Source: Thermomonas sp. HDW16
Lineage (GTDB): Bacteria > Pseudomonadota > Gammaproteobacteria > Xanthomonadales > Xanthomonadaceae
DNA: 64,000 nt
Direction: 5' to 3'
Assembly (NCBI RefSeq): GCF_011302915.1
Contig: NZ_CP049872.1
Location: forward strand, 620,001-684,000
Shown here: in pieces, positions 5,421-53,600 of the stretch
Position numbering within the stretch: position 1 is the first letter of the stretch
Layout: every line of letters begins with the position of its first letter
Program-made: the position numbers and the translations under genes
The notes under the pieces: model-generated
What the model saw: only the letters and a program-made list of their open reading frames with translations
What the model was told of the DNA's origin: nothing
Databases searched by the model: none

Positions 5421-5471
5421 ACCGCAGCGCAACGCTTGACCATTACAGATACAGAGTTACTACGAGGCTAG

Positions 5472-6878
<1,407 letters not shown>

Positions 6879-16383: not shown

Positions 16384-16391
16384 GATTGTTC

Positions 16392-17108: not shown

Positions 17109-17111
17109 GGG

Positions 17112-19454: not shown

Positions 19455-19906
19455 TTGGACCTCCCTTGAGCAACACCCAGCGGTGGAAAGACGATTTCAG
19501 GTTGCGCGGGAGAGGATTCCTCCTCGGACAACCGCTGGCGCAATTGCCGGATGAGGGGCCCCAGAGGGACCGCGATCCGTGTTTGTTGTGCCCAACTGCC
19601 TTCTTCGCTGGCGCTGACCAGTTCCATGGTTTGGCCGTCGAACACGAGCACCTTGTCCTCAAGGCCGAACCACGCACCTTGCGAGCAAGCTTTGAAGAAT
19701 TCGACCGAGTGCGACACGAGTTCCCCCACATTCACGCCCAAGCCATGGATCTGGGTGACGACTTTTAGCGCAAGCAAGTCTCCTGGGCTGAAACAGGGGG
19801 CATACCCCTTCTTCCCTTTCAGCGGCGGAAGCTTTTGCCGCCAATAGCGCAAGGTTTCCTCGGTGATTTCCAAGGCTTCCTTGACCTGAGCGGGCGTGTA
19901 GCGCAT
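19451..19906 (-). CDS. MerR-like winged-helix DNA-binding protein
   Basis: 151 residues. The N-terminal region YTPAQVKEALEITEETLRYW followed by KLPPLKGKKGYAPCFSPGDL has the helix-turn-helix plus wing pattern of MerR-family domains (...TLRYWR...G...Y...D). The C-terminal half is variable and carries no metal-binding cysteine pattern, so it is a MerR-like regulator or specificity factor rather than a metal sensor. First gene of the leftward operon with the methyltransferase. Its promoter has the 19-base spacer and central dyad typical of MerR-controlled promoters, so it probably regulates its own operon. Confidence 0.75.
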   Translation of the reverse strand: MRYTPAQVKEALEITEETLRYWRQKLPPLKGKKGYAPCFSPGDLLALKVVTQIHGLGVNVGELVSHSVEFFKACSQGAWFGLEDKVLVFDGQTMELVSASEEGSWAQQTRIAVPLGPLIRQLRQRLSEEESSPAQPEIVFPPLGVAQGRSK

Positions 19907-19914
19907 GGGTGGGC

Positions 19915-19955
19915 ACTATACGCCAGTTTAATTCGTTGTTTACAACGAATTAAAC
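19915..19955 (-). promoter_or_regulatory. MerR-type promoter and 14-bp dyad operator
   Basis: Reading leftward, TTGTAA (19945-19940) and TATAGT (19920-19915) are separated by 19 bases, the long spacer that MerR activators correct by bending DNA. A perfect dyad, GTTTAATTCGTTGT / ACAACGAATTAAAC with a two-base centre (19926-19955), overlaps the -35 element. It lies directly upstream of the MerR-like gene and between it and tnsC, so it could affect both directions. Confidence 0.65.
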
Positions 19956-20068
19956 CGTTGTATTGTTCAGCTTGGCGAGTCGCTCAGGTGGGAGGGATAT
20001 TGTTCAGAGTTGCTGGGTCGCTCCAGCGCTAGCCTTGAGGGGGTAACGATCGTGATGGGGAAGGCGAT

Positions 20069-21613
20069 ATGACGCCGCAAAAGATCGCGGCAGTAGCGGG
20101 TAATCCGCAGGCAGCGGGGCTGAACGGGCCCGTGCGGTTCAATCCATTCGCGTTGACCATTCGACGGCCTCTCACTGAGGAACAGGTGATTGATGAAGTC
20201 GCTCGTACGCCCCGCATTTATGAGGGCGAATGCGAGCTGCCGGCGTATGCTCGCCGCGAACTCACGATGCGTCTGGATAACTTCGTAGAGCCGCTGCCGC
20301 GATTCTTTGAGCTGGAAAATCGCATTTCGGGAATGATTCGCGCGGGTTACGAGTGCCGCAATCCGCTTCCACTTGGTCTGCAGCGGCAGTTGGTGGAAAA
20401 GCAAGGGCTGGATCAGCGCGAATTCATCACTCTTCCGCCTGTCACCTTGGCGCCCGGGCTTTCATTGATCGGCTTCAGTGGCGTCGGCAAGACGACTGCC
20501 GTCACCTCGATACTAAACCTGCATTCGCAGTTGCTTACCCATGAGGGCTTCCAAGGCGTGCCATTCCATCGCACGCAATTGGTTTGGGCGCGTGTGGCAT
20601 GTCCGCCATCGGGCGGAGCACGCACGCTGCTGATGAACATCTTCCAGGAATTTGATCGATTGATGGGGACCGACAATCACCGCCGGTTCGAGAACTCCAG
20701 GCGGTCCGGCCCCGAACTGGTTCCCAATCTCGTCGACATCATGAGCACGCTCGGGCTTGGGGTGCTGGTCATCGATGAAATCCAGCGATTGGTCCGCATG
20801 GGCAACGAGGAGGCGAGCCTGCTGCTGGATGTCTTCACCCATTTGCGTACCGAAATACATACGCCAGTGATGTTGATCGGTACGCCAAAGGCCATGAGCG
20901 TGCTTAATAGTGGGTTCGAGCAGGGGCGACGCAATACGTCACTGGGACACATCGACTGGCAGCCGATGGATAACGACGACACCTGGGCCTTCTTCGTCGA
21001 ACAGATGTGGAAGCTGCAGTGGCTTTCAAAGCCGACACCACTCACCGAGAAGCTGCAGGACGCACTGTATGAGTGGTCGCAGGGCATCACGGATATCGCC
21101 GTCAAGATTTTCAAGATGGCGCAGTACAACGTGATCGGCGCTGACGATGAGAAGCTGACGCCGGAATTGTTCGAGGCCGTGGTGCGTACCGAATTCGCCT
21201 GGTTCGTTCCATGGATACCGTATTTGAAGCGCCGCGATCCTGAACTCATGAGTGGCGAGTTTGATCGATTGTTCGAACCCGATACCAGGAAAAATAGGCG
21301 AAAGTCGAAAGCGCCTGCTGCGCCGGATTTATCGACTGCACTTCTCCACGCTGGCGTAAAACCCGAAGAACTGCACGATGTGTTGGCAGGATTGAGGCAG
21401 CGGCGTGAAGCCGAAACGGCTGCTGCAGCTGGAACTCCAGCGGCCTCGGCGAAGCCCGCCAAAACGCCGAAGAAGAAAAAGGCCCCCGCTCCTGCGGAAA
21501 CGCCGTCAGGCCTCACCCTGTGGGAGTTGGTGCAACAACAACCACACTTGTCGGGGCATGACGCATTACTTGAAGCCGGCCATGTGCGCTTGCCGGACGC
21601 GGTTGGCTTTTGA
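20069..21613 (+). CDS. tnsC: TnsC AAA+ ATPase target-selection regulator, element A
   Basis: TnsC couples target choice (TnsD or TnsE) to the TnsAB transposase. It has 514 residues. Walker A GFSGVGKT is at 135-142 and Walker B LVIDEIQ has Asp236-Glu237. The N-terminus probably contacts TnsD, and the basic C-terminal region with KTPKKKKAP probably contacts TnsA and DNA. The ATG at 20069 follows GGGGAAGG. It is separated from tnsB by the inserted cargo block and is coupled to the next gene by a TTGA overlap. Confidence 0.93.
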   Translation: MTPQKIAAVAGNPQAAGLNGPVRFNPFALTIRRPLTEEQVIDEVARTPRIYEGECELPAYARRELTMRLDNFVEPLPRFFELENRISGMIRAGYECRNPLPLGLQRQLVEKQGLDQREFITLPPVTLAPGLSLIGFSGVGKTTAVTSILNLHSQLLTHEGFQGVPFHRTQLVWARVACPPSGGARTLLMNIFQEFDRLMGTDNHRRFENSRRSGPELVPNLVDIMSTLGLGVLVIDEIQRLVRMGNEEASLLLDVFTHLRTEIHTPVMLIGTPKAMSVLNSGFEQGRRNTSLGHIDWQPMDNDDTWAFFVEQMWKLQWLSKPTPLTEKLQDALYEWSQGITDIAVKIFKMAQYNVIGADDEKLTPELFEAVVRTEFAWFVPWIPYLKRRDPELMSGEFDRLFEPDTRKNRRKSKAPAAPDLSTALLHAGVKPEELHDVLAGLRQRREAETAAAAGTPAASAKPAKTPKKKKAPAPAETPSGLTLWELVQQQPHLSGHDALLEAGHVRLPDAVGF

Positions 21614-38424: not shown

Positions 38425-39267
38425 ATGGCCAAGCACCGATATGGCTTCGACGAGGCCAAGATCGCCCGTTTCCAGAAGGAGGGGCGTGGAACAGGTCAGG
38501 GCAAGGACTACCTGCCGTGGCTGACCATCCAGGACGTCGCATCGAATGGCAGGGTGACGCGCGTCTACAGCTTTAAGACGGACCGATCGCATCATCTTTT
38601 GTCAGACCTCGAGACCGGTCTGTTTCACATGCTCGATTGGTCAACGTCCGTCGTTGACATGCGCGAGCAGTATCCGCTGGATCGTGAGGTCACCCGAGAT
38701 ATAGCCCGCCAAATGGGCATTCAGCATCCGCGTGACACACGAACGCAGACGGACATCGTGATGACCACGGACTTCCTCGTGGACATCAGGAGAGCGATGC
38801 AGAAAGGACTCGCCGCTTACTCGGTAAAACCTGCAGCGGAACTCGACGATGCCAGAACGCTAGACAAGCTGGAGCTCGAGCGCCGCTATTGGCAACTGAA
38901 AAAGGTCCCCTGGTTTTTGGTCACGGATAAGGATCTACCGAAGCGTCGAATTCTCAACCTGGCGTGGCTGCATGAGATGCGATCACTCGATCAATTGCAG
39001 ACCAAGCACCCGGATTATTGGAAAGACCGGTGTGATCGGTTCATCGGCGTCCTGACCCGCACACATGGGGGCTTGGTCCATGACCTGTTGTCGTATCTCG
39101 AGCAGCACTGTGAGTTTCGCGATGGCGAGCCTATGACGGTGCTTCGGCATCTGGCGGCGAACAAGCGCCTCGGACTCGACCTGGATGTTGAGTTTTCGAC
39201 CAAGAGTCCGGTAAGTGCGCTTCGCCTTGCGACCCACGAGCAGCAGCAAATGGGGGCCCGGGCATGA
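38425..39267 (+). CDS. tnsA: TnsA endonuclease, element B
   Basis: 280 residues. The catalytic residues are Glu81 (MREQYPL), Asp116 (MTTDFLVD) and Lys135 (YSVKPAAEL), as in Tn7 TnsA. The N-terminal EGRGTGQGKDYLPWLTIQDV corresponds to the block EGRGQGTGEHYLPWIHVRDF in element A, but overall the two proteins are far apart. GAGGTGAGGC precedes the ATG. It overlaps tnsB (ATGA at 39264). The gene stands about 8 kb from the nearest transposon end, unlike in Tn7, where tnsA directly follows the right end. Confidence 0.95.
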   Translation: MAKHRYGFDEAKIARFQKEGRGTGQGKDYLPWLTIQDVASNGRVTRVYSFKTDRSHHLLSDLETGLFHMLDWSTSVVDMREQYPLDREVTRDIARQMGIQHPRDTRTQTDIVMTTDFLVDIRRAMQKGLAAYSVKPAAELDDARTLDKLELERRYWQLKKVPWFLVTDKDLPKRRILNLAWLHEMRSLDQLQTKHPDYWKDRCDRFIGVLTRTHGGLVHDLLSYLEQHCEFRDGEPMTVLRHLAANKRLGLDLDVEFSTKSPVSALRLATHEQQQMGARA

Positions 39268-41468
39268 TCCTGAAACTTGCGGACCTCTTGGACCTGGACC
39301 CTGAGACCGGAGATCTCGTGCGCGTGGTGTGGCTTTCCCCGGATCACGGAACGGCGGCCTTGTTTCGGGTTGCGGACGAGAAGGCATTTCCGGTCCTGGT
39401 TCCAGTGGAATCACTCGAGAACAGACTTCGAGCTCTGGAAATCCGATTGGTTGTGGACGATCCCTACCAGGTCATCGTCGTGGAGAACAAGCTGAAAGAC
39501 AGCAACAAACGTAAGCGTGATCGGGCGTGGAGTCTGATTCAGCCTTTGGTCGAAAACACGCCCGACATCTTCAACGCAAATCGTCGTGGCGCCTTGGTGC
39601 AGGACACTGTCAACGAGGCCAGGAAAGGCGAGAACTGGGCTATCAAGCGCACGACGAAGGCGTTGATCTATGGATATCTGCGCCGCTATTGGCAGCGCGG
39701 GATGACCGCAAACGCGTTGCTACCCGACTACGACAAATGCGGCGGTCGGGGCAAGATCAAAAAAGCGGGTGACAAGAAGCGAGGGCGACCTCGCAAATAC
39801 GGCATTCAGGTCGGTATCAACGTGACGTCTGAGATTCGACGGTTGTTCTCGGTTGCGTTCGACCGATATTACGCAACTACAAAAAATGGCAAGCACACGC
39901 TGAAAGGTGCGTTCAATGCACTGATTCGAGATTTCTTTTCGGTCAAGAGTATCGACACTGATACGGGGCGAATCGTGCACCTCAAAAAGGAGGAAGTCGA
40001 AGCACAAGGTGGTCTCCCGACGATCGATCAATTCGTCTACTGGTCGGACAAGGACCATCTACGCCTTGAAATCAAACGCAAGCGGATGGGTCCAAAGCTC
40101 TATGACAAGGACATGCGTGGCTTGCTGGGTACCTCGAATGCCGAGGTCATGGGGCCAGGCAGCAGGTATCAGATCGATGCCACGATTGCCGACGTCTTTT
40201 TGGTGTCGAGGCTGGACCCCAACCTGATCATTGGGCGCCCAGTGCTCTACATCGTGATCGATGTCTTCAGTCGCATGATTGTTGGTTTGTATGTCGGATT
40301 GGAAGGGCCTTCGTGGGTGGCGGCGATGATGGCGCTTGCCAATACCGCAATGGACAAAGTGGCTTTCTGCGCCAAGTACGGCATTCCCATCGAGCCAGAA
40401 GATTGGCCTTGCCACCATTTGCCGGGAATCTTCTTGGGCGATCGTGGAGAAATGGAAAGCGACAAGGTCGATACGCTCATCAACAGTTTCAACGTGAAGG
40501 TGGAGAACACGAGCTCCTATCGCGCTGACTGGAAGGGCATCGTCGAGTCTCGATTCAGGCTGCTGCCGGCGGCATTCAAGCCATACACGCCAGGCTATAT
40601 CGATGTCGATTACCGACAGCGTGGCGGCCATGATTATCGCCTCGATGCAGTGCTGAACCTTGATGATTTCATGAAAATCATCATCAATTGCGTACTTCAC
40701 TACAACAACGTGCACGAAATCACGACCTACGATTTCGACCGTGATGTCAAGGTGGACGGTGTGCCGGCAATTCCCGCCGAGCTATGGGACTGGGGCATTC
40801 GCCATCGATCCGGCGCCCTACGCACCTATCCGGAGGAACTCGTCCAGTTCAGTTTGATGCCGACGGACAGCGCGTCGGTGACGACCACCGGTATCGCGTT
40901 TCGTGGACGGTTTTACACGTGCCCGCTGGCGATCGAAGAGCGCTGGTTCGATAAGGCACGTCAGGATGGCCGATGGAGAGTCACAGTGTCGTACGACCCG
41001 CGCGACGTGGACACGATCTATCTGCACACCCCGGGGTCGCGCATGGGGTTCTCGGTGTGCACGCTGACGGATCGCAGCCGTGCAGATCAACACCTTTCCT
41101 CGTGGGAAATCGATCAAATCGATCAGCGCGACAAGCACGGACAAGCGAATCGCCGGACAGACGCCATTCTTGCAAAGGCAGACACGGATGCCGCAAACGA
41201 GGAAGTCATTGAGCAGGCCAAGCAACGGCGCGGCAAGCCCAGTCAGGCCAGCGCGGCCAGTCAGACCAATCGTATTCGAGAAAATCGCGCTAAGGAGAAA
41301 GCTGCCAACCGGGAGGGAGAAGCCTTCAGGCCTGGTCAGACATCAGATAGACAGGAGAAACCCAGCGCTGAAGTGATTCAGTTCCCAGGCAACGCGGTGC
41401 AGCAGGAAACAGATTACAGCCTGCCCACCATTGACGAAATCTTGGGAGGCGCCGATGAAGATGCCTGA
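39264..41468 (+). CDS. tnsB: TnsB transposase (DDE), element B
   Basis: 734 residues. The triad is Asp305 (YQIDATIAD), Asp393 (FLGDRGEM) and Glu428 (GIVESRF), again spaced 88 and 35 residues apart. It presumably recognises the AAATAAAGTTGTATC-type ends, which differ from those of element A. The N-terminal part has the expected helix-turn-helix regions and the C-terminus ends TDYSLPTIDEILGG, probably the TnsC contact. It lies between tnsA and tnsC with short overlaps on both sides. Confidence 0.96.
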   Translation: MILKLADLLDLDPETGDLVRVVWLSPDHGTAALFRVADEKAFPVLVPVESLENRLRALEIRLVVDDPYQVIVVENKLKDSNKRKRDRAWSLIQPLVENTPDIFNANRRGALVQDTVNEARKGENWAIKRTTKALIYGYLRRYWQRGMTANALLPDYDKCGGRGKIKKAGDKKRGRPRKYGIQVGINVTSEIRRLFSVAFDRYYATTKNGKHTLKGAFNALIRDFFSVKSIDTDTGRIVHLKKEEVEAQGGLPTIDQFVYWSDKDHLRLEIKRKRMGPKLYDKDMRGLLGTSNAEVMGPGSRYQIDATIADVFLVSRLDPNLIIGRPVLYIVIDVFSRMIVGLYVGLEGPSWVAAMMALANTAMDKVAFCAKYGIPIEPEDWPCHHLPGIFLGDRGEMESDKVDTLINSFNVKVENTSSYRADWKGIVESRFRLLPAAFKPYTPGYIDVDYRQRGGHDYRLDAVLNLDDFMKIIINCVLHYNNVHEITTYDFDRDVKVDGVPAIPAELWDWGIRHRSGALRTYPEELVQFSLMPTDSASVTTTGIAFRGRFYTCPLAIEERWFDKARQDGRWRVTVSYDPRDVDTIYLHTPGSRMGFSVCTLTDRSRADQHLSSWEIDQIDQRDKHGQANRRTDAILAKADTDAANEEVIEQAKQRRGKPSQASAASQTNRIRENRAKEKAANREGEAFRPGQTSDRQEKPSAEVIQFPGNAVQQETDYSLPTIDEILGGADEDA

Positions 41469-43068
41469 AGCCGTCACGACGTTGCCCGAGTACGCGGGGA
41501 ATCCGTTCATTGCGTCGCTTCCTGATCTCATGCCGCAAAAAGGGATCTACGCAGAGTTGTTGGCAGAGCCGGCTTTTCACGAAAAGGAACGAAATTACCC
41601 GTCTTATTTGCGAAAGCACTGTATCGCAAGGCTCGATAAATGCTTCCTGCCGCAGGCGCGACAGGTGGACTTGGCGGATCGCTTCGCATTGCTGCTGCGA
41701 CAAGGGTACATAGGTCGAAATCCCTTGAAGCATGACTACCTGAAGCACTTGCAGAACGGCTTTGAGCGCATTGAGGGACGATCTTTGGATGTCAAGGTAT
41801 CTCAACCCGTAGAAAACACTGCGAGTAGCTTTGCGCTTTTGGGCTGCCCGGGGGTTGGCAAGACATTATCAGTGAATCGTACGTTGGGCCTGTACCCGCA
41901 AACGATCCGTCACGACAAGCCATTCAGCCTCGTTCAGATCGTGTGGCTGCGCTTGGAGGCGCCTGCTTTGGGTTCTTTGAAGCAACTGTGCCTCGACTTC
42001 TTTGAAGCCATCGATACCCTGATTGATACCGACTACGTCAAGCGTTACACCATTGGGGCATCGGTGGAACAAATGCTGGTGCACATGGCGCACTTGCACG
42101 CACTTGGCGTTCTGGTCATCGACGAGATTCAGAACTTGCGTGGCGCGAAGGTTGGCGCCGAACAGTTGATGAAGTTTCTGGTGAAGTTGGTCAACACCAT
42201 TGGCGTTCCGGTTATTCCCGTTGGAACCTTCGGCGCGTTACCCCTCCTGCAGAGGAGCTTTAGTCACGCGAGGAGGTCGACAGGCCTCGGATCCCTCCTT
42301 TGGGATCGCATGGAACCTGGTCCCGTTTGGGATCAGTTCGTGAAGAAGTTTTGGAAGTTTCAGTGGACCAAACTGTATACCGAGATAAGCAACGAGCTGA
42401 ACGCGACGCTGTATGACGAAAGCCAGGGGATCGCAGACCTGGCGGTCAAGCTCTTCATGCTGGCTCAGCTTCGGCTGGTGAGTATCAGCGAAATGCGCGC
42501 GAGCGTGTCTGAAACGCTGACAAGCAAACTGCTTCGGACCGTGGCCAAGGAAGAGTTCGCCATTGTGGCGCCGATGATCGAGGCCCTACGCGTAAATGAT
42601 AAAGAGTACTTGGCCAAGTGCGACGATCTTCGCGCACTCAGCGATCATGTTGGCTTGGTGTTAGGGCGTGCGCTGGGTGGACAGGCCCAGGAGTCATCGC
42701 AACCCAGCGCACAACCAACCTCGGACACAGTTCAGGATACTTCGAATGGATCGACTGACGCGCTGTTGATATCGTCATTGTTGACGCTCGGGGTTGCGCA
42801 AGATGTGGCTCGGAAGCTGGTTGACGAGGCATTGGCAAAGGATCCATCAGGCGATCCGTTGGTACTGATGACGCACGTTGCCAAAATATTGACCGCCAGT
42901 CCGCCGAAGCAAAAGAAGCCAAAGCCAACACCGCAGCAGAACGAGCAACGGCCCGCAAATGACTTGCGTGTTCTTGTGCAGGCCGGACGCGACAACAAAC
43001 AGAGCGCGTATGCGGCACTTCTTGAAGCTGGGGTCGTGCGTCCACCCATGCTGGATTTCGCGGCATGA
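41455..43068 (+). CDS. tnsC: TnsC AAA+ ATPase, element B
   Basis: 537 residues from the ATG at 41455 (GGGAGG lies six bases upstream); the open frame reaches 41431 inside tnsB. Walker A GCPGVGKT is at 130-137, Walker B LVIDEIQN with Asp223-Glu224. A charged, Lys/Pro-rich stretch (PPKQKKPKPTPQQNEQ) precedes a short end ALLEAGVVRPP that resembles the end of the TnsC of element A (ALLEAGHVRLP), so this tail is conserved between the two elements although the rest has diverged. Confidence 0.93.
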   Translation: MKMPEAVTTLPEYAGNPFIASLPDLMPQKGIYAELLAEPAFHEKERNYPSYLRKHCIARLDKCFLPQARQVDLADRFALLLRQGYIGRNPLKHDYLKHLQNGFERIEGRSLDVKVSQPVENTASSFALLGCPGVGKTLSVNRTLGLYPQTIRHDKPFSLVQIVWLRLEAPALGSLKQLCLDFFEAIDTLIDTDYVKRYTIGASVEQMLVHMAHLHALGVLVIDEIQNLRGAKVGAEQLMKFLVKLVNTIGVPVIPVGTFGALPLLQRSFSHARRSTGLGSLLWDRMEPGPVWDQFVKKFWKFQWTKLYTEISNELNATLYDESQGIADLAVKLFMLAQLRLVSISEMRASVSETLTSKLLRTVAKEEFAIVAPMIEALRVNDKEYLAKCDDLRALSDHVGLVLGRALGGQAQESSQPSAQPTSDTVQDTSNGSTDALLISSLLTLGVAQDVARKLVDEALAKDPSGDPLVLMTHVAKILTASPPKQKKPKPTPQQNEQRPANDLRVLVQAGRDNKQSAYAALLEAGVVRPPMLDFAA

Positions 43069-44807
43069 CGACACTTGCCTATTTCCCAGAAATCTATCCG
43101 AAGGAGTTGCTGTACAGCGTCTTGGCGAGGTATCACCGCCACACGGGGACGCCTTCGTCTAGCCACACCATGGAGGCTCTCTTTGGTCGCAGGCTCATTG
43201 TGGCGAGCTTGGATCTGCCTGGCCACATTCAGGCGTTAGCCGATCGACTACCGACAACTGCGGGTTGGACGGCCGACCGTATCGTCGACGAACTGACCTT
43301 GCTGCCGTACTACACCGCGTATCAGTCGGCTGCCGTCAGGAGGCTCGCGCGGCGTTCGGTGATTCGGGGCGCAAGCAACTGCCTCATGACACGGCTTGGC
43401 ATGGCTGCCTTCGGTGTCCAGCACATCACCAAACTAAGATTCTGTCGGTTATGCCAGCAGGACATGCTGTCCATGTACGGAGAATGCTACTGGCGTCGTG
43501 ACCATCAGCTGCCCGGCGCGCTCGTTTGCGCAGACCATGGGTGCTCCCTGCAGGTGAGCACCGTATCGCTGGTAGAGCGTGGGCGACATGAATTTGTTGC
43601 CGCTGATCGGAGAGTTTTCTCAAGCGACGCACCGATGATGGTCCGCAACCTTGACCAGCAAGTGATGTCGGATCTACAGCGCTTGGCCCAGATCAGTCGA
43701 AATGCGCTGGAGAATCCAGGGCCAGCCAAATCTTGTCGAGCGTGGACGCAGTACTACCGACTCAACATTGGCAGGCTCGGATGCTCGTACTCAATGCAGC
43801 GAGTCGATCAACGCCGTTTGCGGGAGCAGTTCAATTTTCACCATAAAACTGTCCTCCCGGAGCTCTCACGGCTGTTCCTTGGTCGTGGAGAAAGCCAGGG
43901 TTGGCTGGCTGCCATCGTGAGAAAGCATCGCAAAGCATTCCATCCGCTCCACCATCTTCTGGTGCAAGACTTCCTTGATCATCAGGAAGTGCGTACTGAC
44001 CCTTTTGGCAACGGGCCGTGGCCCTGCCTGAGTCCCTTGGCCGAGCACAAGGGGCGGCCGACGGTCGCCAGGGTTGAGGTGCATCGAAATCGCGGCCATC
44101 AGGTCGGTGTCTTCCAATGCGCTTGCGGCTATACGTATACCCGAAGCCACTTCGGTGGTGACAGGGGCCTTGGACCTCCACGGTTTCAGACGTATGGCCC
44201 GAGCTTGGTACCGGCTTTGCGCGGGTTGGTTCGTGAGGGATATTCGCTACGTGCCGTGGCGCGTCGGCTGGAAATTGATCCGAAGACCGTCGTCAAACTG
44301 GTAGAAGAACTGGGGATTGACACTGTCTGGAAAGCTCGCGCTGTCCCCAAGCGAGAGTTGAAAATCCGGCCTCCCGTGGTATCCGCGCCGCCGAAGGGTA
44401 GCGGTAAAGCCAAAGCAGTGGCGCTAGCGGTGCGCGTGGATTGGAGCTCACGCGATGAACAGGTCAGCGCCAAGATTTCTCGGGCGGCACGAGAGATTCG
44501 CGGCCTCGTGCCACTGGTTCGTGTCACAACGCTGCAGATTGAACGTCGGTGTTGGAATCGTGGGTGGCTGAGCAAACGCGCTGAAAAGTTGCCGAAAGCG
44601 ATGCGCCGTCTCAAAGGGGTTGTTGAAACCGTCAACGTGTTCCGGCGCCGGCGAATTGCTTGGGCGATCGACGAGATGGCCAAAGCCGACGCACGACTCG
44701 TTGCATGGCAGGTCCTGCGCAAAGCAGGCCTAGGTACCGAATATGCCGAGCTCGCCAAGGGGCTAGTTGATGAATACCTCGGTGTGACGCAGCGGCGGGC
44801 AGCATGA
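43065..44807 (+). CDS. tnsD: TnsD/TniQ target-site protein, element B
   Basis: 580 residues. TniQ opening TLAYFPEIYPKELLYSVLAR; zinc ligands Cys127, Cys130, Cys155 and His158 (FCRLC ... VCADH). The C-terminal half contains the repeated pattern GLVREGYSLRAVARRLEID, a helix-turn-helix, and a second Arg-rich DNA-binding region. Since element B also entered at glmS, this is inferred to be an attTn7-specific TnsD. ATGA overlap with tnsC at 43065 and with tnsE at 44804. Confidence 0.91.
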   Translation: MTTLAYFPEIYPKELLYSVLARYHRHTGTPSSSHTMEALFGRRLIVASLDLPGHIQALADRLPTTAGWTADRIVDELTLLPYYTAYQSAAVRRLARRSVIRGASNCLMTRLGMAAFGVQHITKLRFCRLCQQDMLSMYGECYWRRDHQLPGALVCADHGCSLQVSTVSLVERGRHEFVAADRRVFSSDAPMMVRNLDQQVMSDLQRLAQISRNALENPGPAKSCRAWTQYYRLNIGRLGCSYSMQRVDQRRLREQFNFHHKTVLPELSRLFLGRGESQGWLAAIVRKHRKAFHPLHHLLVQDFLDHQEVRTDPFGNGPWPCLSPLAEHKGRPTVARVEVHRNRGHQVGVFQCACGYTYTRSHFGGDRGLGPPRFQTYGPSLVPALRGLVREGYSLRAVARRLEIDPKTVVKLVEELGIDTVWKARAVPKRELKIRPPVVSAPPKGSGKAKAVALAVRVDWSSRDEQVSAKISRAAREIRGLVPLVRVTTLQIERRCWNRGWLSKRAEKLPKAMRRLKGVVETVNVFRRRRIAWAIDEMAKADARLVAWQVLRKAGLGTEYAELAKGLVDEYLGVTQRRAA

Positions 44808-46486
44808 AAAAGATGTTTTTCAAATGGATATCCAAGCTCGTTGAGGGCTCTGCCGAAGTCTTCTGGTTGGCAGGCCTGGTACTCAATGAAATGAACGAGT
44901 GGAAAGTGAGAACGGTCTATCGAAACAAGGACACCGGTCAATTGTTTCCGTCACTTGATCCTATCGGGATGCTTCCACTCCTGAGCCTGGGAACATGGTT
45001 TGATCGCCATGGCCAGTTGATGGTCGACGATCTGCCGGGCGAACTTGTCGAAACTATCATCCAGGACGTCGGAAATCCGGAAGTCATCACGTCGGATGAA
45101 CTGCCACCAGAGCTCTATCCCTTGCCGGAAGGGAAGGCGGGAAAGCAGCGTCTATTTCGCTATCGGACCGCGAAAGGAAATGTCTTGATTCCAGCGGTAG
45201 AACTGGTGCGCTTCCTCTTCCTGCATAACAGGGCCTTGGCGTTGGCGCTGATGCGCCCAGCGGGACTGGAGCAGCTGTACGCTCCTATGGCACCCGGGTC
45301 GCGGGACGTGGCGAAACTTCAGTTCACGCGGGCCATGCCACAAAGTGCAATCGGCCATGAACTGGCGAAAAATATCGCGTGGATCGCGCTTGACGAGAAC
45401 GCACGGCGATCCTGGGATAGTGTTCTGCGTCTCTCCCAAGGGCAAAGCTATGTCCTGTTTGAGCCGCCGTCCATTCGGAATTCGGTATGGGCGTTTCGTG
45501 GATTCCGATTCGGTAACCAGTGGCTCGTGCTTGAGTTGAACTACATCGGCGGGCGGACACTGCCGGTGCGAACACTTGAATACACGCACCCACAGTTCAA
45601 GAAGGTCATTAAGGTTGGTACGGAAGGTAGTCCTGGTCACGGTGCCGAGAAATCGAAACCTGAAGGAAGTAGTGGGAAGCCTGCCGAGAACAGCTACGAC
45701 GTTGATGACGGAGAGAGCGGAAGTAGTAGCTATAAGGGCGCCCAAGTGCTTGATCTGGGGAATCGTCCTAGATCCTTCGACAACCACGTGAAAGTCGTAA
45801 AGGAAAGAAAGGAGGTAGAGCGCAAGGGCGAGAAGCAGAAACCGGCTGAGAAGAAGGCTCCTACACCCAAAACCCCGCGCGTCATTCAGGCAACAATGGG
45901 TGAGCGAGCGGCCGCTGCGACGCTTCCGCCGCTGGAGTTCAAGACCATGTCACCGGTGCCATGGGCCAGCATGGGGGACCTCGAGGCGTTGGATGAAACT
46001 GTCAGGCACATGCGAGATGCGTTGCCAGACGCGCAGTTCTCCATGGGGTTGGTGCCGCTAAAGCAGGGGCGTGTGGTCTCTATCGTCGACTCGAAACCTC
46101 GGGTTGCCATGGTCGTGACTATTAGGAATCCACGGAGCTTGCCGGTCATTCTGATCGACGTAGAACGATCAGGTATCGCGGCCCTGTCGTTAATGTCGAT
46201 GCGCTTTGAAGCAGACGTCACATCAGGCCAGATGGAAATGGCGGTTCGAAAGATGCTCGATGGCTGGGTTGACGCCAGTGGTTATTGGTCATCGAAAGTC
46301 GAAGAGGAGCTTGCAAGTCACTGCCATTGCCAACGGTTGCCAAAAGCTATCATGCCTAGAGAGGACTTTGAGAAGTATGGAAAGGCATGGGCGAGTCGCT
46401 TGGTCGAAAAATTGGGGCTAATGCGCGATGACGAGCAATCAGTCGATGCATACCCAACTTCCTACGGAGGAGACCCACATGATTGA
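44804..46486 (+). CDS. tnsE: TnsE target-selection protein, element B
   Basis: 560 residues (538 in Tn7). The N-terminal region is followed by a Lys/Glu/Pro-rich linker at about 270-365 and a conserved C-terminal domain (LPDAQFSMGLVPLKQGRVVS). Layout and length match TnsE, and the similar linker and domain order are seen in element A. It would let the element enter conjugative plasmids and replicating DNA. It is coupled upstream to tnsD and overlaps the next small gene by eight bases. Confidence 0.87.
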   Translation: MKKMFFKWISKLVEGSAEVFWLAGLVLNEMNEWKVRTVYRNKDTGQLFPSLDPIGMLPLLSLGTWFDRHGQLMVDDLPGELVETIIQDVGNPEVITSDELPPELYPLPEGKAGKQRLFRYRTAKGNVLIPAVELVRFLFLHNRALALALMRPAGLEQLYAPMAPGSRDVAKLQFTRAMPQSAIGHELAKNIAWIALDENARRSWDSVLRLSQGQSYVLFEPPSIRNSVWAFRGFRFGNQWLVLELNYIGGRTLPVRTLEYTHPQFKKVIKVGTEGSPGHGAEKSKPEGSSGKPAENSYDVDDGESGSSSYKGAQVLDLGNRPRSFDNHVKVVKERKEVERKGEKQKPAEKKAPTPKTPRVIQATMGERAAAATLPPLEFKTMSPVPWASMGDLEALDETVRHMRDALPDAQFSMGLVPLKQGRVVSIVDSKPRVAMVVTIRNPRSLPVILIDVERSGIAALSLMSMRFEADVTSGQMEMAVRKMLDGWVDASGYWSSKVEEELASHCHCQRLPKAIMPREDFEKYGKAWASRLVEKLGLMRDDEQSVDAYPTSYGGDPHD

Positions 46487-46963: not shown

Positions 46964-49213
46964 TTAAGACAGGCGAATTTCTCCGAGGGATACGCCGACA
47001 TCGCGCTTGGACACAATCATCATTAGCGCCGGAATGCCATCTGACGCCAATCGACTGGCGAGCGTCGCCAGCAGGACGATGTCCGTGCCGCTTGGGTCTG
47101 ATGTATGCCCTGCCGGGTGTGAGTGCCACTCGCCGATATAGCTCACCATGCCGCCGGTCAGGTTCTCACAGCGGGACACATAGTCTTGCCCGCCCTCGCC
47201 GCGGACGAAGCTGGTCGCATCCGCCGAACTATCAGGTGGCGCGTCGGACGCATCTACGATTGTGATCGTGCGTAGTTTTTGATCGATCACGCCCACCAAG
47301 ACTCCGCCGGTCTCGGAAGGCAGACAGGCATCGCGCATCGCATGAAGCTTTGCCTCCACCCCCGCATCCCACCGGACCTGCCAGTCTCCGCGCACAAATT
47401 CCCTGACCGGGTGGACCTCGACCGATGCTGCCGAAAGAGAGCCCGTGTCGTCATCCAAAGTCCAGACCCGAATAGCCCCATCGCCGGACGCCACCGACTT
47501 GCGGAGTCGCCTAGCCAGTTGGGCCGCATGAGTCTCGACAAGTTCGAAGGGCAACGCCAGGCTATGGTCGCGACAGCCTGCGCCAACGCGCACTTCCTTT
47601 GATCTCTCCAAGTGCTTCTCGCCCCAAGGCTCATTGAGGATTGCTCGGTAATACTGGGCTTCCAGCGCGGAAAGTCTGACCTGTCGCTTCTCGTCCTCAA
47701 GTAAAAGAACAGCACTCATCCCGGAGTAGGTGAAGAACACTGACGCGCTCCGGGGCAGATCTTTTTGTTCCGACCAGTCTCTGGGAACTTCGATCGTCGT
47801 AGTGGCATCGACGAGCAACTGGGCATCGCGAAGGGATTTCGCCACATCGGGATTTGCCAAGTCGTTCGCGCGCGCAACGATTGCCGGCGGCCGTACTTGG
47901 CCTACCCCCAAGGTGCACGAGGCATGCACACTGACGACCTGCACCTTCGGAAAACAGACGGCACCTGCGGGCGCGATGTGGCGAACTAGATTGTGAGGGG
48001 CCAGGTCGTCGGGATCGATGAAGCTCCAGCGTCCCCAGGCTTCGCGCGCCCAGATATCGGCCAACACGCCACCCAACGATCCGACGCCAGCCAAAACGCC
48101 CGTGAAATCGGCATCTTCCTGGGTCACACCTGACAGGGCGCGCGCGAACTGCCTGCTTGGCATAGGCCGCAGATCCGTCAAGATAAGCGGGACAGAGCGC
48201 CAGACCGTCTCCGGCGAGAGCGTTGCGCCACCAATCGCGAGATCCTCTGCTACGGAAACTGGACCACCCGGTACCGGACGGAAGAGTACGCCAAGCTTGA
48301 TCCCAACGTTCTCGAACTTCTCCGCGATTAGAAATCCACGGCAATCCAGCCGCTCAGTCTTTCCATCACGCGTGCGGGGAATGCGCACGATAAGCAGCAA
48401 GCTTCCGTTTCCTCCCCCTCCGTTCCCAGTGAGGCGAAACTGCCTTCTGAACGCTGCCTCAAACGGGCCCTGAAACTCCAATCCCATCTGCGCGAGTTGA
48501 TCTGCCAGCGCGCCCAGCGTTCCGGGCGGGCGCTGGATTGGTATGTTGCCTACGGGTGCGAGATCGACAACCAAAGGCTGGATGGTCGATGCTGGATCGT
48601 CCGGCTTTGTGGTCGATGCGATGAAATAGGTGTGTCCGTTTCCTCCTTGGACTTGATGACAGTAAATGACGCCAAGATCCTCGGCCGACCTCTCATTGAA
48701 CTCGGCAGGAAGCACAACGGTGAATTCAGTGGCGTAGAACAGCTGTTCCAGCGCCTGATCTTGCGCATGAAGCGTGCCGTCAGCCGTGCAGCGCAGCCAC
48801 CACAGGATGCGATCCAAGTGTTTTTGCGGCGTCCATCGCCGCTCTTCGAAACCCCAGTTCTCGTAAAGACACAACGACGCTGGCTGGCCTGCGGCGACGC
48901 CGTGCAGATGGATCACATCGGGGAAGTCGGCCCGAATTGCTCGCACCTCGGCGGGCACGCTCTGATCGGATCGAAATGTCAGGCAGAGACGCTCACGGGG
49001 AAGAATCTTCGCGTCATTTCGAGGTGCGATCGTGCCGTCACCCGCCTCGACCACGATGCCCACATGTGGAAGGGGCGCGTCGAGTTGGCGCAACTCGACT
49101 ACCCTGAAATGCGGATGCTGTTGGCATGCGTGCAGCAGTCCCAGGAGCTGGGGGTTCACCTGCTCGTTGGGAATGTGTTCTATCCGCTCGCCCCAATCAA
49201 GAAAGACGACCAT
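46964..49213 (-). CDS. E2-E1-JAB fusion protein of a ubiquitin-like conjugation system
   Basis: 749 residues with three domains in order. An E2-like domain (about 1-165) has a candidate active Cys115 in PASLCLYENWGF. A ThiF/E1 adenylation domain (about 360-570) has GVGSLGG at 376-382, FIDPDDLAPHN at 398-408 and a candidate catalytic Cys547 in GAGCRDHS. A C-terminal JAB/MPN metalloprotease has Glu634 and HSHP-x7-S-x2-D (His697, His699, Ser708, Asp711), the full JAMM zinc site. The frame is open to 49474, but that part lies inside the upstream gene; the ATG at 49213 is two bases after its stop. It is related in logic to Cap2/Cap3 of type II CBASS and to Bil/Bub operons, but all three activities are in one chain. 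Confidence 0.88.
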   Translation of the reverse strand: MVVFLDWGERIEHIPNEQVNPQLLGLLHACQQHPHFRVVELRQLDAPLPHVGIVVEAGDGTIAPRNDAKILPRERLCLTFRSDQSVPAEVRAIRADFPDVIHLHGVAAGQPASLCLYENWGFEERRWTPQKHLDRILWWLRCTADGTLHAQDQALEQLFYATEFTVVLPAEFNERSAEDLGVIYCHQVQGGNGHTYFIASTTKPDDPASTIQPLVVDLAPVGNIPIQRPPGTLGALADQLAQMGLEFQGPFEAAFRRQFRLTGNGGGGNGSLLLIVRIPRTRDGKTERLDCRGFLIAEKFENVGIKLGVLFRPVPGGPVSVAEDLAIGGATLSPETVWRSVPLILTDLRPMPSRQFARALSGVTQEDADFTGVLAGVGSLGGVLADIWAREAWGRWSFIDPDDLAPHNLVRHIAPAGAVCFPKVQVVSVHASCTLGVGQVRPPAIVARANDLANPDVAKSLRDAQLLVDATTTIEVPRDWSEQKDLPRSASVFFTYSGMSAVLLLEDEKRQVRLSALEAQYYRAILNEPWGEKHLERSKEVRVGAGCRDHSLALPFELVETHAAQLARRLRKSVASGDGAIRVWTLDDDTGSLSAASVEVHPVREFVRGDWQVRWDAGVEAKLHAMRDACLPSETGGVLVGVIDQKLRTITIVDASDAPPDSSADATSFVRGEGGQDYVSRCENLTGGMVSYIGEWHSHPAGHTSDPSGTDIVLLATLASRLASDGIPALMMIVSKRDVGVSLGEIRLS

Positions 49214-49214
49214 C

Positions 49215-50390
49215 TCATCCCGCCCGCGGGGCCGCGGCGGCGGCAGTTGCTGCCGCCGCCGTGGCGGCTTCCACCGCGCGTACCTTGGGGCCGGCCGCTT
49301 GGATCTCGATGTCGATTGGGGCTGGCGCCCAGGTGAAGGGCGTCTCGCCCGTGCACAAGAACTTGCCGAAAACCGGATCGAGGATGCTCTCGTATTCGCG
49401 CTTGGCACGTGTGCAAGGTGGGTCGCCATCGTCATCACGGATGGGCTTGCTGCTCGCGATGATCTTCGCGCCATGCCGGGCCTGCCCTAGGGCCGAACGG
49501 GCCTTCTCCGACACCTCGGCGTCTTCGCCGCAGTCCGACCAGCTGTCGTAGGAGAACACGTGCCAAGAGCAATGATGCGGCGTTTCGAGGATGTCGTAGG
49601 CCAGCACCTCAGGCTCGTCCTTGTAGCGATCCCACAACCGTTCCCAAATGGCGACTTCGGCATCGCCTGCCGTAAGGAAGCGGTACTGGTTCATGCCTAC
49701 TGCGGTAGCCGCAATCTCGAAATTGAGAATCACGCTGGACTGGTTCTTCGCGCGCAGCTCGTCTTCTTCATCGTCGTCGCACACCAAGCTCGGCGCAAGC
49801 AGATGGGCGGAGAAATAGCTGCTGGATACACCGTTAACCTTGGAGAAACGCTCGCCACTGCGGATGAGGATCGCTTCAAGCCCGTCGGTCTTGCCATCCT
49901 TGTCCTCGCCCAGGATCAGGATGCGATCGCCTTCTCCGGCCCAGCCGTTGTTCCGAAAGTGCTTGACCCGGCGGCGCGCCTCCGCGGCCCAAGCCTTCGC
50001 ATCGTCGCAAAGGACATGGTGGATCTTGTGTGCGCGACGGAAGACGATGGGCGAGGACCACATCTCTCGGATCACAATCTTCTTTTCGGCATCGGGTTTG
50101 CCGTCGTCGCCGTAATCTTCCAGCGCGCCCAGCTGGAAGTGGGTGCACAGGCCTGAGCAGTGATCCTTGTCCGGGTGGCTGAGCAGGAAAGCATCGACGT
50201 AAGGACGGCCATTGGCGTCCCGCGGCAGCCGCGCCCGCAAGTCCTTGGCGACGTCCCGGGTCTCCTTGTCCGCCGGATCGTCGGCGGCCTTGCGGATGTT
50301 GCAGTCGATCAAGAACGTCGTGCCGTCGAGCAGTCGGAGCAACGCCATGTCGCCGTTGCCGACCGGGAAGAAGCTGAGCGTGGGGGTCAT
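49215..50390 (-). CDS. ComEC-type metallo-beta-lactamase-fold protein with alanine-rich tail
   Basis: 391 residues. The zinc motif is SHPDKDH (His72, Asp74, Asp76, His77); further ligands are likely the Asp in LTAGDAE and the His residues in ETPHHCS. The HxDxDH pattern is that of ComEC/Rec2-like hydrolases and nucleases. The last 20 residues are a flexible Ala-rich tail ending in Pro-Arg-Ala-Gly. A free tail with a terminal small residue is what E1/E2 enzymes of the Cap2 kind need as donor. Directly upstream of and coupled to the E2-E1-JAB gene. The substrate is unknown; a nuclease or cyclic-nucleotide hydrolase role is possible. Confidence 0.82.
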   Translation of the reverse strand: MTPTLSFFPVGNGDMALLRLLDGTTFLIDCNIRKAADDPADKETRDVAKDLRARLPRDANGRPYVDAFLLSHPDKDHCSGLCTHFQLGALEDYGDDGKPDAEKKIVIREMWSSPIVFRRAHKIHHVLCDDAKAWAAEARRRVKHFRNNGWAGEGDRILILGEDKDGKTDGLEAILIRSGERFSKVNGVSSSYFSAHLLAPSLVCDDDEEDELRAKNQSSVILNFEIAATAVGMNQYRFLTAGDAEVAIWERLWDRYKDEPEVLAYDILETPHHCSWHVFSYDSWSDCGEDAEVSEKARSALGQARHGAKIIASSKPIRDDDGDPPCTRAKREYESILDPVFGKFLCTGETPFTWAPAPIDIEIQAAGPKVRAVEAATAAAATAAAAAPRAG

Positions 50391-50503: not shown

Positions 50504-51400
50504 ATGGCGGATCTCTCAAGCCAAAATCGGCGAGGTCGTTGGGGGCAGGATCGACGCCTCGAGTTCATTGACTCGCGCCTTTACTGGGTTGGCCGGGTCA
50601 ATCGGTCATCGCTCACCGACTTTTTCGGTATCTCGGTTCCGCAGGCATCGCTTGACCTTGCCGAATACCAAGCGCAAGCGCCGCTCAACACGGTCTACGA
50701 CCGCACCGAAAAGGCCTACGTCGCAACACCTGAGTTCAAGCCATTGCTGGTTGACCCCACGAGTGGTCGCTACCTCGCTGAGCTTTATGCGCTCACTACC
50801 AGCACCATCCCGCCCGACATCAGCTTCCTCGGCGAACCGCCAACGACCGCAATCGTCAAGCATCCGACGAGACTGGTTTCGCCGGAACTCCTTCGCTCAG
50901 TGCTGCACGCGATCCACTTCCGCTCCACGCTCGAAATTACCTATCAGTCCATGAGCCGGCCCGAGCCCAGTCGGCGAGCGATCAGTCCGCGTGCGCTGGC
51001 ATACGACGGCTACCGCTGGCATGTGCGTGCCTACTGTCACAAGCGCGAGAATTTTTGCGATTTCGTGTTTGCGCGCATTCTCGACCATTCCGAGATAACC
51101 CCCTCGCTACCCGTCCCGGAGAAGGATTCCGAGTGGGAGCGCAGGATCACCATCGAGATCGGCCCAAACCCAAGATTGGCTGCCGGCCAGCGCAAGGCCA
51201 TTGAGCTTGACTACGGCATGCAGGACGGTGGCCTCGCGATCGAAACGCGTCAATGCCTTGCCTACTATCTTTTGCGCCGATTGGGATTACATCGCCAGAC
51301 CGATGGTCTTCCTGGCAATGAAAAACAAGTCATTTTGCTCAACCGGGAGGACTTGGTTCCCTTGATCCCGGAACTGCGGCCTTCCAACACTGGTGATTGA
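50504..51400 (+). CDS. WYL-domain transcriptional regulator (CapW/BrxR-like)
   Basis: 298 residues. An N-terminal winged helix (RRLEFIDSRLYWVGRVNRSS) is followed by a central WYL domain with YRWHVRAYCHKRENFCDFVF and a C-terminal extension. This layout and length match the BrxR/CapW family, dimeric repressors that keep BREX or CBASS operons off until phage infection. It faces the lactamase/E2-E1-JAB operon and precedes a membrane protein and Wadjet, so it may control either direction. The ligand is unknown. Confidence 0.85.
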   Translation: MADLSSQNRRGRWGQDRRLEFIDSRLYWVGRVNRSSLTDFFGISVPQASLDLAEYQAQAPLNTVYDRTEKAYVATPEFKPLLVDPTSGRYLAELYALTTSTIPPDISFLGEPPTTAIVKHPTRLVSPELLRSVLHAIHFRSTLEITYQSMSRPEPSRRAISPRALAYDGYRWHVRAYCHKRENFCDFVFARILDHSEITPSLPVPEKDSEWERRITIEIGPNPRLAAGQRKAIELDYGMQDGGLAIETRQCLAYYLLRRLGLHRQTDGLPGNEKQVILLNREDLVPLIPELRPSNTGD

Positions 51401-51403
51401 TCG

Positions 51404-52048
51404 ATGGCTGCGTCCCTCAAAGATTCCTATCGATGGCAGCTGTTCGCCGCACTTGCAGCGAACCTCGTCCTCTACTACGGGCTCGTCAAGGGGTTGAGCT
51501 TGGCCGAAATCCGGTTAAACACCGCGCTTGCCCACCTTGCGGAGCTGCTTCCAAGTGGCCTTGCCGTGGCACTTTGCGGAATTATCAACGCGCAACTCAC
51601 CCCACTGCAGAAGGCGCGAATCATTTTTCTGCGCTGGGGCGACCCGCTGCCAGGTTCCCGGGCCTTCTCCCATTACGCTGCCCGAGATCCCCGAATTGAC
51701 ATGCGGGCCGTGCAAGCCAAATGGTCGCCCTTACCGAACGATCCGTATAAGCAGAACGCACTTTGGTATCGCATCTACCAGCAGGAGCAGGAGACGCAGG
51801 CCGTTCGCCACCTAAATCGAAATTGGCTCTTTGCACGGGACTATGCTTGCACCTGCGTGCTTAATTTCTTCGTCCTCGGCGGTCTCGGCATTTTCCAGAT
51901 GCCGAGCCTTGCCTCGTGGTCGATCTTCATGGTGATCGTTGCTGCGCAGTTCCTCCTTGCTAGGCAATCTGCGGTTCATCATGCAGAAAGATTCATTACT
52001 ACCGTAATTGCGCAGGCCGCCTCAAAGCCGGGCGGGGCAAATACGTGA
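51404..52048 (+). CDS. hypothetical membrane protein next to the WYL regulator
   Basis: 214 residues with about four hydrophobic segments: near 13-30, 45-65, 150-168 and 170-190. Between the pairs is a polar loop with WGDPLPGSRAF and WYRIYQQEQET. It starts four bases after the WYL stop and is thus in the same operon. I recognise no family. Two membrane-spanning pairs are common in effectors of abortive-infection systems (for example CBASS membrane effectors), so it could be the killing part of the neighbouring lactamase/E2-E1-JAB unit; this is inference. Confidence 0.6.
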   Translation: MAASLKDSYRWQLFAALAANLVLYYGLVKGLSLAEIRLNTALAHLAELLPSGLAVALCGIINAQLTPLQKARIIFLRWGDPLPGSRAFSHYAARDPRIDMRAVQAKWSPLPNDPYKQNALWYRIYQQEQETQAVRHLNRNWLFARDYACTCVLNFFVLGGLGIFQMPSLASWSIFMVIVAAQFLLARQSAVHHAERFITTVIAQAASKPGGANT

Positions 52049-52108: not shown

Positions 52109-53600
52109 ATGAGCGTCAACAGTCAGGAGCGCACCGAGTCATACATTCTGGCCCGCCAGCAGAATCCTGCCTGGCAGTTGCTGGCCGGGCGCAGAGCGCC
52201 GCTCGTGCTGAGTTGTCTGCAGGCGCTATTCGAGGAAAGTCAGGACGGCGTCGATTATGACGATGCTCAACAAGCGCTAGCCGATTTATTGGCCGGGCAT
52301 GCCGGACTGAGCGAGTTTGAAATTAACGGCGACACTTCCACGCTGGCGCGCAAGGAACTGCGCACCTGGATCCGACGTGCTCTGGTAGTCGAACGCGAGG
52401 GGCGGTTGTACGCTACCGATGCGTTGGAAACCGCACTGCGATTCGTGAAGGCGTTGGGCAGCCGCATCATGACCTCCACAGCCTCGCGACTGGCGGTCGT
52501 TCAACGCGAAATTGAACGCTTAGAAGCGCGATTGAATCCCGACCCGCAGAGCCGGGCTGAACACTTGCGCCGGCAGATCGTCGGTCTGCAGCGGGAATTG
52601 GAAGAAGCCGAAGCCGGCCGGATCGAGGTCGCTGACATCAAGGAAGCGGCCGAGGGGATTCGCGAGCTCTATGCACTGGCGACTAGCCTGCGCGCAGATT
52701 TTCGCCGGGTAGAGGATTCCTGGCGCGACGCTGACCTGCACCTACGTCACGCCATCGTCAATGAGGGCCACCACCGCGGTGCGGTCGTCGACACCCTGCT
52801 TGATGGCCACGACACATTGCTCGAAACCGTCGAGGGTCGGGTATTCCAAGCATTCCATCAGCAGTTGCAACACGAAGTTGAGCTGGAGGCAATGAAGCGC
52901 CGGTTGCGCATCATTCTGCAGCACTCACAAGCCAGCGTCGCGTTGACCATGTCACAACAGACCGATCTGCGATGGTTGGTGATGCGCTTGGTCAAGGAGT
53001 CGGCTTCGGTCATTCGTGCACGCTCGCGCAGCGAACGCGATGTCCGCAGTTTTCTTCGTACAGGTCTGGCAGCTGAACATCATCGAGTCGGTCAACTGCT
53101 TAACGAGGTCTTTCGCCATGCCCAGGCTGTGGACTGGAGTATTACTTCGATACGCCGACAGCCGACACCTGCCGCCTCTGGCCGTCGCTTGTGGCGGCCT
53201 GCCCTTGGTAGAACGGCTGCGCTTCAAATCTCTGGACCAGCAGGCACTACGCGATCTGGATCTGCAGCGCATGGCCGGCGACATCGACCAGATCGACGAG
53301 GAGTTCTGGTCTTCGCTGGATAGCCTCGACCGAGAAGCGTTGGTGCGCGATACCGTGGAAACGATACACAGCAGCAACCAGCCACTGAGTCTAGCCGGCT
53401 TAGCGCAGCGGCTGCCTCCAACGCACGACCTGGAGTCCCTCGCCGTATGGCTTGGCTTAGCGCGGGAAGCGGACTGCACCATCGGCGAAGAGCGCGAAAC
53501 TCTGGATCTCACCACCCGAGACGATCAGAACCTACGCTTCCATGTGCCGTTGCTCGTGCTCGACCCGGCGATGTTCGAGAACTTCGAATGGGAACCCTGA
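52109..53600 (+). pseudogene. jetA: Wadjet JetA (MukF-like, DUF3375), frameshifted
   Basis: JetA is the kleisin-like subunit of the Wadjet plasmid-defence condensin. The first 355 residues (winged helix, then a coiled region with AEHHRVGQLLNEVFRHAQ) are in one frame. The last 145 (LPLVERLRFKSLDQQALRDL to MFENFEWEP) are in the next frame, and the two join as RRQPTP / PPLAVACGG when one base near 53171 is removed. The joined length, about 496, is normal for the family. As written the gene encodes a 404-residue protein without its C-terminal winged helix. It is followed after one base by jetB. It is either dead, a sequencing error, or made by ribosomal slippage. Confidence 0.85.

Follow-up and report, generated by a model that had tools for sequence, protein, structure and literature searches.

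We propose that the metallo-beta-lactamase (MBL)-fold protein encoded in the window (the whole 64,000-nucleotide stretch of DNA analyzed here) is very probably itself the conjugation donor of the neighboring E2-E1-JAB enzyme, standing in the place of the CD-NTase in a CBASS-like defence cassette. The proposal draws on sequence comparison, namely, gene order, catalytic residues, conservation of the MBL C-terminal tail, co-inheritance of tail and enzyme, and the occurrence of the same tails on CD-NTases, together with the absence of the tail motif from a second MBL family, MBL2. These comparisons lend support to the suggestion of a first-pass annotation of this DNA that the lactamase itself would be the conjugated protein.

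The MBL and E2-E1-JAB gene pair and its setting

The MBL gene is an open reading frame throughout, and its product ends in ...AAAAAPRAG (final residues TAAAATAAAAAPRAG) before a TGA stop codon. A single base separates this stop from the ATG (49213) of the E2-E1-JAB gene. In the MBL, the metal motif reads H72-x-D74-x-D76-H77, D243, and H272-H273; in an alignment of 67 sequences, H72, D74, D76, H77, H272, and H273 were invariant and D243 nearly so. The protein matched no Pfam family, and its sole hits in a PDB sequence search were short ones to endoglucanases (E 0.0038 at best). The partner protein has the domain order E2 (Prok-E2_A, 1.7e-17), E1 (ThiF), and JAB (Prok-JAB, 4.5e-11) in Pfam, where Prok-E2_A and Prok-JAB scored above the cut-off and ThiF, with 19.3 bits, below its cut-off of 28.1; in the PDB sequence search, a relative was found for the JAB domain alone (9ild, E 8.5e-5). 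The first-pass description of an MBL with an Ala-Gly tail next to an E2/E1/JAB fusion gene was thus confirmed from the reading frames and domain matches, and the two cysteines it had singled out, E2 Cys115 and E1 Cys547, were found to be conserved (Table 1).

Table 1. Features of the cassette, with window coordinates unless a locus is named
Feature	Coordinates	Strand	Details
E2-E1-JAB fusion, 749 aa	46964..49213	-	NCBIfam NF058523 6A-MBL_cap2_3, 644.5 bits (cut-off 320)
JAB metal site E634, H697, H699, S708, D711	47081..47314	-	present in 45/48 aligned enzymes, 3 gaps
Predicted E1 catalytic Cys547 codon	47573..47575	-	kept in 45/48 aligned enzymes, 3 gaps
Predicted E2 catalytic Cys115 codon	48869..48871	-	kept in 47/48 aligned enzymes, 1 gap
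MBL-fold protein (proposed conjugation donor), 391 aa	49215..50390	-	NCBIfam NF058524 6A-MBL_enzyme, 430.7 bits (cut-off 220)
MBL C-terminal tail, residues 368-391, PKVRAVEAATAAAATAAAAAPRAG	49218..49289	-	RAG-class motif at end
WYL-domain regulator, divergent	50504..51400	+	Pfam WYL, 7.7e-13
Small TM223-cluster protein, candidate membrane effector	51404..52048	+	2 hydrophobic windows
MBL2 genes	L028 6964-8079; L043 and L044 9759-10892

The locus is a member of an already known system, 6A-MBL (NCBIfam, June 2026), as both window proteins exceed the curated cut-offs and adjoin each other. The designation "anti-phage" comes here from the NCBIfam name only, and the choice of cap2_3 as a name hints that a likeness to Cap2/Cap3 had been recognized. 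All 346 positions of the NF058524 model have been aligned by residue 367, so that the tail falls outside it. A search of the accessible literature found no paper using the name 6A-MBL. The gene pair is likewise already known: Iyer et al. 2006 (PMC1779556) described it as operon type 6a, in which the E2-E1-JAB triple module almost always adjoins a metallo-beta-lactamase; the accessible part of that paper makes no mention of an MBL tail or of a donor role for the MBL. Other defence MBLs in PADLOC (LmuA, 2.4e-9 over residues 4-86; RTasMBL, 1.9e-6; PDC-M48B, 2.1e-4) and Avs1a in NCBIfam (9.3e-5; 21.3 bits against a cut-off of 420) belong to the same broad MBL class, with matches far weaker than that to 6A-MBL (3.9e-129).

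Clustering of neighboring ORFs of at least 100 aa across 91 loci, including the window, placed E2-E1-JAB in 82 loci (some of them fragments), TM262 in 47, the WYL family in 40, TM223 in 15, and a further family, which we call ImmA-like by its appearance, in 11. The membrane proteins of the cassette matched no Pfam family above cut-off. A patatin gene follows in six distant MBL operons examined, and in the Agrobacterium, Phaeobacter, and Gluconobacter plasmid operons, though not in that of Nostoc, the patatin lipase comes after the enzyme. As in CBASS, the cassette seems to consist of a core plus an exchangeable effector. In L035, a small membrane protein after E2-E1-JAB (4966-5475) represents a third type of membrane partner and matches PADLOC PDC-M48A (1.7e-62). 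No nucleotide cyclase was seen in the cassette.

Beyond the WYL and TM223 genes lie Wadjet (Jet) genes. JetA (52109-53600) seems split, as a 404-aa frame reaches position 355 of 499 in the best JetA model and is followed by a second frame (53016-53600), reflecting either a frameshift or a sequencing error. The window also holds two Tn7-like sets (13388-21613 and 38425-44807) with TnsA, a Mu-type transposase C-terminal domain, and TniB, the second also with TnsD/TniQ, and the defence genes sit within this Tn7-like island. The sets come after a gene that, from its Pfam domains, we take to be GlmU-like. A 560-aa protein directly after TnsD/TniQ (44804-46486) matched no Pfam family at E 0.01.

Conservation of the MBL tail and its relation to the enzyme lineage

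The first-pass annotation had proposed an alignment of homologous lactamases as a check, and a comparison of homologue tails showed that a C-terminal motif is kept. In 96/96 classified MBLs (38 clusters at 70% core identity), a RAG, HG, GFA, or GxG motif lies at the end or within a few residues of it, with HG in 73, RAG in 17, GFA in 3, and GxG in 3; these classes were defined by eye from the printed tails, prior to any tree. Since the motif occurs in all 96, the tail is more than chance. Among the best 120 of 2664 homologues, 94 have [RK]AG and 17 have HG, in both cases in the last nine residues, and 7 have GFA at the end, the other two being P0093 and P0088. In the P0088 protein, more than 30 residues, with a hydrophobic stretch, follow PRAG, so that it is either a membrane-anchored precursor or an annotation error. 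For the Agrobacterium MBL, [RK]AG stands close to the C-terminus in 112 of the best 120 of 2940 relatives, with RGG, RVG, or RSG in the remaining 8. The same tail picture was obtained for the best 80 of 136 reference-genome loci together with the window locus.

An E2-E1-JAB match on the same strand was detected downstream by tblastn in 74 of these 81 loci (3.9 kb off in L078). Three of the other seven (L011, L043, and L044) have a divergent E2-E1, profile-scanned for L011 and L043. The sequence of L054, L055, and L058 stops 1.1-1.3 kb past the MBL, at a contig or locus edge, where the partner is not assessable, and L028 has just a 229-aa ORF at the enzyme position; these four loci, in which the partner gene was not demonstrated, are counted within the 96. 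Left out of the 96 were L082-L085 (copies, with RAG or HG tails), L089 (the same gene as L087), L122-L127, and L088, whose match spans model positions 3-111 only (E 1.3e-13) and whose tail is not classifiable.

Plasmid relatives at 25-28% identity, from Agrobacterium, Phaeobacter, Gluconobacter, and Nostoc, end in PTRAG, SPRAG, APRAG+RWR, and APRAG, respectively, and in every case the next gene encodes an enzyme of the E2-E1-JAB cluster described above. The motif is thus kept while the MBL diverges to about 25% identity. Two actinobacterial proteins (L092 and L094) and a distant one (L086), ending in IGFGAA, VGFGR, and VGYGD, form the separate GxG class, and the enzymes of L092 and L094 form a clade of their own. 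Phage records gave no MBL match. Six loci came from IMG/VR: the MBLs of L122-L125 end in RAG or HG plus 0-4 residues, that of L127 ends in GGGGYA, and L126, in which the reading frame spans just 54 aa counted from where the match begins, was not used. Near copies of an E. coli plasmid operon relative (L090), as distinct from the window genes, were present in 31/5426 complete E. coli genomes, which places the system in a species convenient for laboratory work; the L090 MBL has a natural run-on tail, RAG followed by VSNQ.

The motif was found at the end of 0/30 rows of the MBL2 family (four of the rows are fragments and one protein is listed twice); these ends are mostly acidic and variable (PEDQES, SYEEA, EVDDTDN), and the L009 protein ends in Gly without the motif. 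As most MBL2 rows come from loci that hold E2-E1-JAB too, the value of MBL2 as a control lies more in the shared fold than in a lack of the enzyme. In the MBL2 loci L112-L116, no ThiF or JAB gene was annotated in the stretch shown. MBL2 adjoins the TM262 membrane gene in L043, L044, L053, and L094.

Tail class was then mapped onto trees of 48 representatives, namely, those with an E2-E1 protein of >480 aa. The four tail classes required 6 changes on the tree of the MBL core, from which the last 40 residues had been removed, versus 3, the minimum, on the E2-E1 tree; the class GGGxYA (P0093 and L127) is absent from these trees, L127 being placed in the joint tree described below. The MBL core rejected single clades for RAG, GFA, and HG with p-AU values of 0.0105, 0.012, and 0.0158, which are moderate (about 0.01) and derive from quick trees with long branches. 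The Nostoc MBL, only 25% identical to that of the window, has a RAG tail, and its enzyme groups with the enzymes of near MBLs. On these results, tail class tracks the E2-E1 enzyme rather than the MBL core.

Tails common to MBLs and CD-NTases

The MBLs of L011, L043, and L044 have KPAGFA at the C-terminus; downstream of each come a separate E2-E1 gene and then a small gene, which in L011 encodes a JAB domain (Pfam). The E2-E1 proteins of L011 and L043 matched PADLOC PDLC00855 (E1-E2) over nearly their full length, with 621 and 620 bits. The L011 enzyme fails the NF058523 cap2_3 model (83.7 bits), while its MBL passes NF058524 (430.7 bits). With the CBASS-type enzyme as the query, 179 plasmid records were matched (40 listed, 7 examined), and the PDLC00855 model matched 6/398 genomes. 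All 11 CD-NTase-like genes next to full-length relatives of the enzyme (L099-L109) encode proteins ending in GFA or GFG, as illustrated by the CD-NTase of L107, SLIRPALGIGLTFPSNPVYPNKPGGFA, and the MBL of L011, SLLRASVAASGLTFPPRPVVPNKPAGFA. MBLs next to a CBASS-type Cap2 end in ...FPxxPVxPNKPAGFA, as do CD-NTases next to the same Cap2 family. In the L110 and L111 operons, where the enzyme matches in the E1 part only, the CD-NTases end in TGRFA and GGGRHA. We use the name CD-NTase on the basis of sub-threshold matches (eight CBASS-operon proteins were scanned, and the seven CD-NTases among them match NCBIfam cyclase models, all below the curated cut-offs), record annotation, likeness, and SMODS domains of homologues.

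The similarity of these tails was assessed by shuffling. For 20 MBL/CD-NTase tail pairs, covering 4/10 MBL tails and 5/11 CD-NTase tails, local alignment scores were 43-93 and the highest shuffled score was 48; for 19 pairs, 0/1000 shuffles reached the score, and for the remaining pair, 2/1000 did. Against three CD-NTase tails, mean scores were 66.7-87.7 for 9/10 MBL tails and 20 for P0093, compared with 15.7-23 for 8 hand-picked MBL tails of other classes. Two core-core comparisons scored 29 and 31, and five shuffles of one of them scored 28-37. The L107 CD-NTase has 738 homologues; among the best 120, the C-terminus is GFA or GFG in 118, including 30 with exactly NKPAGFA, the same end as in all 7 GFA-class MBLs among P0001-P0120.

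A second common class is GGGxYA/GGGRHA, comprising the L127 MBL (GGGGYA), which passes the 6A-MBL model with 374.9 bits, and the Agrobacterium cGAS-like protein of L111 (GGGRHA). The L127 E2-E1 aligned with that of L111 over 550 residues (24% identity, E 3.6e-46); its alignments with 11 other enzymes were segmental, none longer than 137 residues. On a joint tree of 32 enzymes, whose deepest forks are weak, 5 changes, the fewest possible, sufficed for the six tail classes, against 4 or more switches of carrier between MBL and CD-NTase. A single clade of MBL-linked enzymes was rejected (p 1.6e-27), as was the grouping of the two GFA ones (p 1.4e-84). With the same tails present on two unrelated enzymes, the MBL and the CD-NTase may each be able to act as the tag that is attached.

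For CBASS, the accessible part of Jenson et al. (PMC10097602) reports conserved Gly/Ala ends only on the cGAS of operons with Cap2 and Cap3, and the same logic is applied here to the MBL tails. According to the portion available of a study of the Bacillus cereus cyclase (PMC11153139), PspA lysines were found to carry its terminal peptide KPGGFA, a change of the last Ala abolished immunity, and Cap3 took the cyclase off without a scar. The 6A-MBL cassette resembles type II CBASS in its E2-E1 and JAB parts with the catalytic residues kept (Cap2 and Cap3 being fused in the window), in a putative donor with a conserved small C-terminal residue, albeit with run-on past the motif in 14/44 representatives, and in the same tails in two classes. 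Patatin genes occur in the CBASS operons L105 and L111, as in the distant MBL operons, and a WYL gene adjoins one CBASS operon. It differs in having an MBL-fold hydrolase at the CD-NTase position; a genome-wide search, which among CD-NTase families covered SMODS (PF18144), gave no match at E 0.01.

Proposed mechanism, alternative readings and implications

Under the proposed mechanism, the E1 domain would adenylate the C-terminal Gly (RAG) of the MBL tail, which would then pass via thioesters on E1 Cys547 and E2 Cys115, so that the MBL becomes joined by an isopeptide bond to lysines, or possibly another amine, of partner proteins. The JAB domain would trim tails with extra residues after the Gly and take conjugates apart. 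By analogy with CBASS, from which we infer priming, localization, and release by JAB, conjugation would prime or localize the MBL hydrolase. The membrane protein (TM223 here, TM262 or a patatin lipase elsewhere) would be the likely killing effector, and the WYL protein would control expression.

A variant in which the MBL tail is joined to a lipid or small molecule, as for Atg8/LC3, anchoring the MBL at the membrane next to the effector, is unlikely. Membrane or lipase genes do accompany the cassette, and Jenson et al. (PMC10097602), in the part accessible, leave a lipid target open for CBASS; however, the enzyme carries the same E2 and JAB equipment as Cap2/Cap3, and the reported attachment of the B. 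cereus cyclase (PMC11153139, in part) is to the lysines of PspA.

We hold it very improbable that the tail is kept for another reason, be it translation coupling, a protease or degradation tag, or docking to the enzyme without conjugation. The tail lies at the very end of the protein, and in the window the stop and the next start are 1 nt apart, the last MBL residues directly preceding the start codon, so that some constraint at the DNA level is possible there. Codon usage at the motif, however, varies synonymously: in 33 HG representatives, His is encoded by CAT in 17 and CAC in 16 and Gly by four codons, and in 11 RAG representatives, Ala is encoded by three codons, which argues for selection on the protein end. 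Furthermore, 14/44 RAG/HG representatives (11/33 HG and 3/11 RAG) keep the motif though the frame continues for 1-6 residues beyond the conserved Gly, and the same tail is found on CD-NTases, a known kind of donor. The PRAG end as a mere by-product of ribosome binding or coupling was rejected in view of the synonymous codons and the run-on tails.

Because of these 14 run-on tails, a trimming step must be assumed in the donor reading. Trimming is predicted to occur, perhaps by JAB, and by likeness to the account in the accessible part of Jenson et al. (PMC10097602) the JAB domain could act likewise here. The first-pass annotation had named bulky C-termini in homologues as evidence against a donor role; taken literally, such ends do occur in the 14, but the motif itself is present in all representatives, pointing to trimming rather than rejection of the model. 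The extended tails would also suit a scheme in which JAB cleaves the tail and thereby activates the MBL by proteolysis, conjugation by E1/E2 being secondary. This we consider highly unlikely, since 30/44 representatives already stop at the Gly and no enzyme that aligns at the positions of the E2 and E1 cysteines lacks them.

Bil and Bub, which resemble the present system in having ubiquitination-type enzymes in immune operons, use ubiquitin-like donors, but no such donor was found in this cassette. Among ORFs of 40-130 aa outside larger ORFs, no ubiquitin-size gene recurred in the cassettes at E 1e-4, a search that a fast-diverging gene could escape, and a genome search that, among ubiquitin-like families, covered Prok_Ub (PF14454) gave no match at E 0.1, in agreement with the first-pass remark that no ubiquitin-like gene was visible. 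That the enzyme conjugates a separate ubiquitin-like protein encoded elsewhere, as Bil and Bub and the scope of the genome search might allow, with the MBL only a downstream effector, is most improbable, given that the commonest small-ORF family in the cassettes is an HTH (5 loci) and that the MBL tail follows the enzyme lineage.

With the MBL as the donor, priming could work through localization or through activation of hydrolysis, and the MBL might act on a signal or on nucleic acid. A signaling role for it is possible but tentative and is favored by the CBASS-like effector genes. As a bolder conjecture, one that may well prove wrong, Cap2-type enzymes would read an enzyme-specific tail code, and the tail would be movable, at least two classes having been exchanged between the nucleotidyltransferase and lactamase folds. 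The MBL would functionally replace the CD-NTase and, once conjugated, make or destroy a diffusible signal controlling the patatin or membrane effector, while JAB would mature extended tails like ubiquitin precursors.

The proposal raises the question of what job the MBL does in a cyclase's place beside patatin or membrane effectors. If the MBL is indeed the donor, bacterial ubiquitin-type conjugation would require neither the ubiquitin fold nor the CD-NTase fold, and an enzyme-matched tail alone would suffice to turn a protein into a donor. The donors of uncharacterized bacterial E1-E2 enzymes would then be predictable from sequence.
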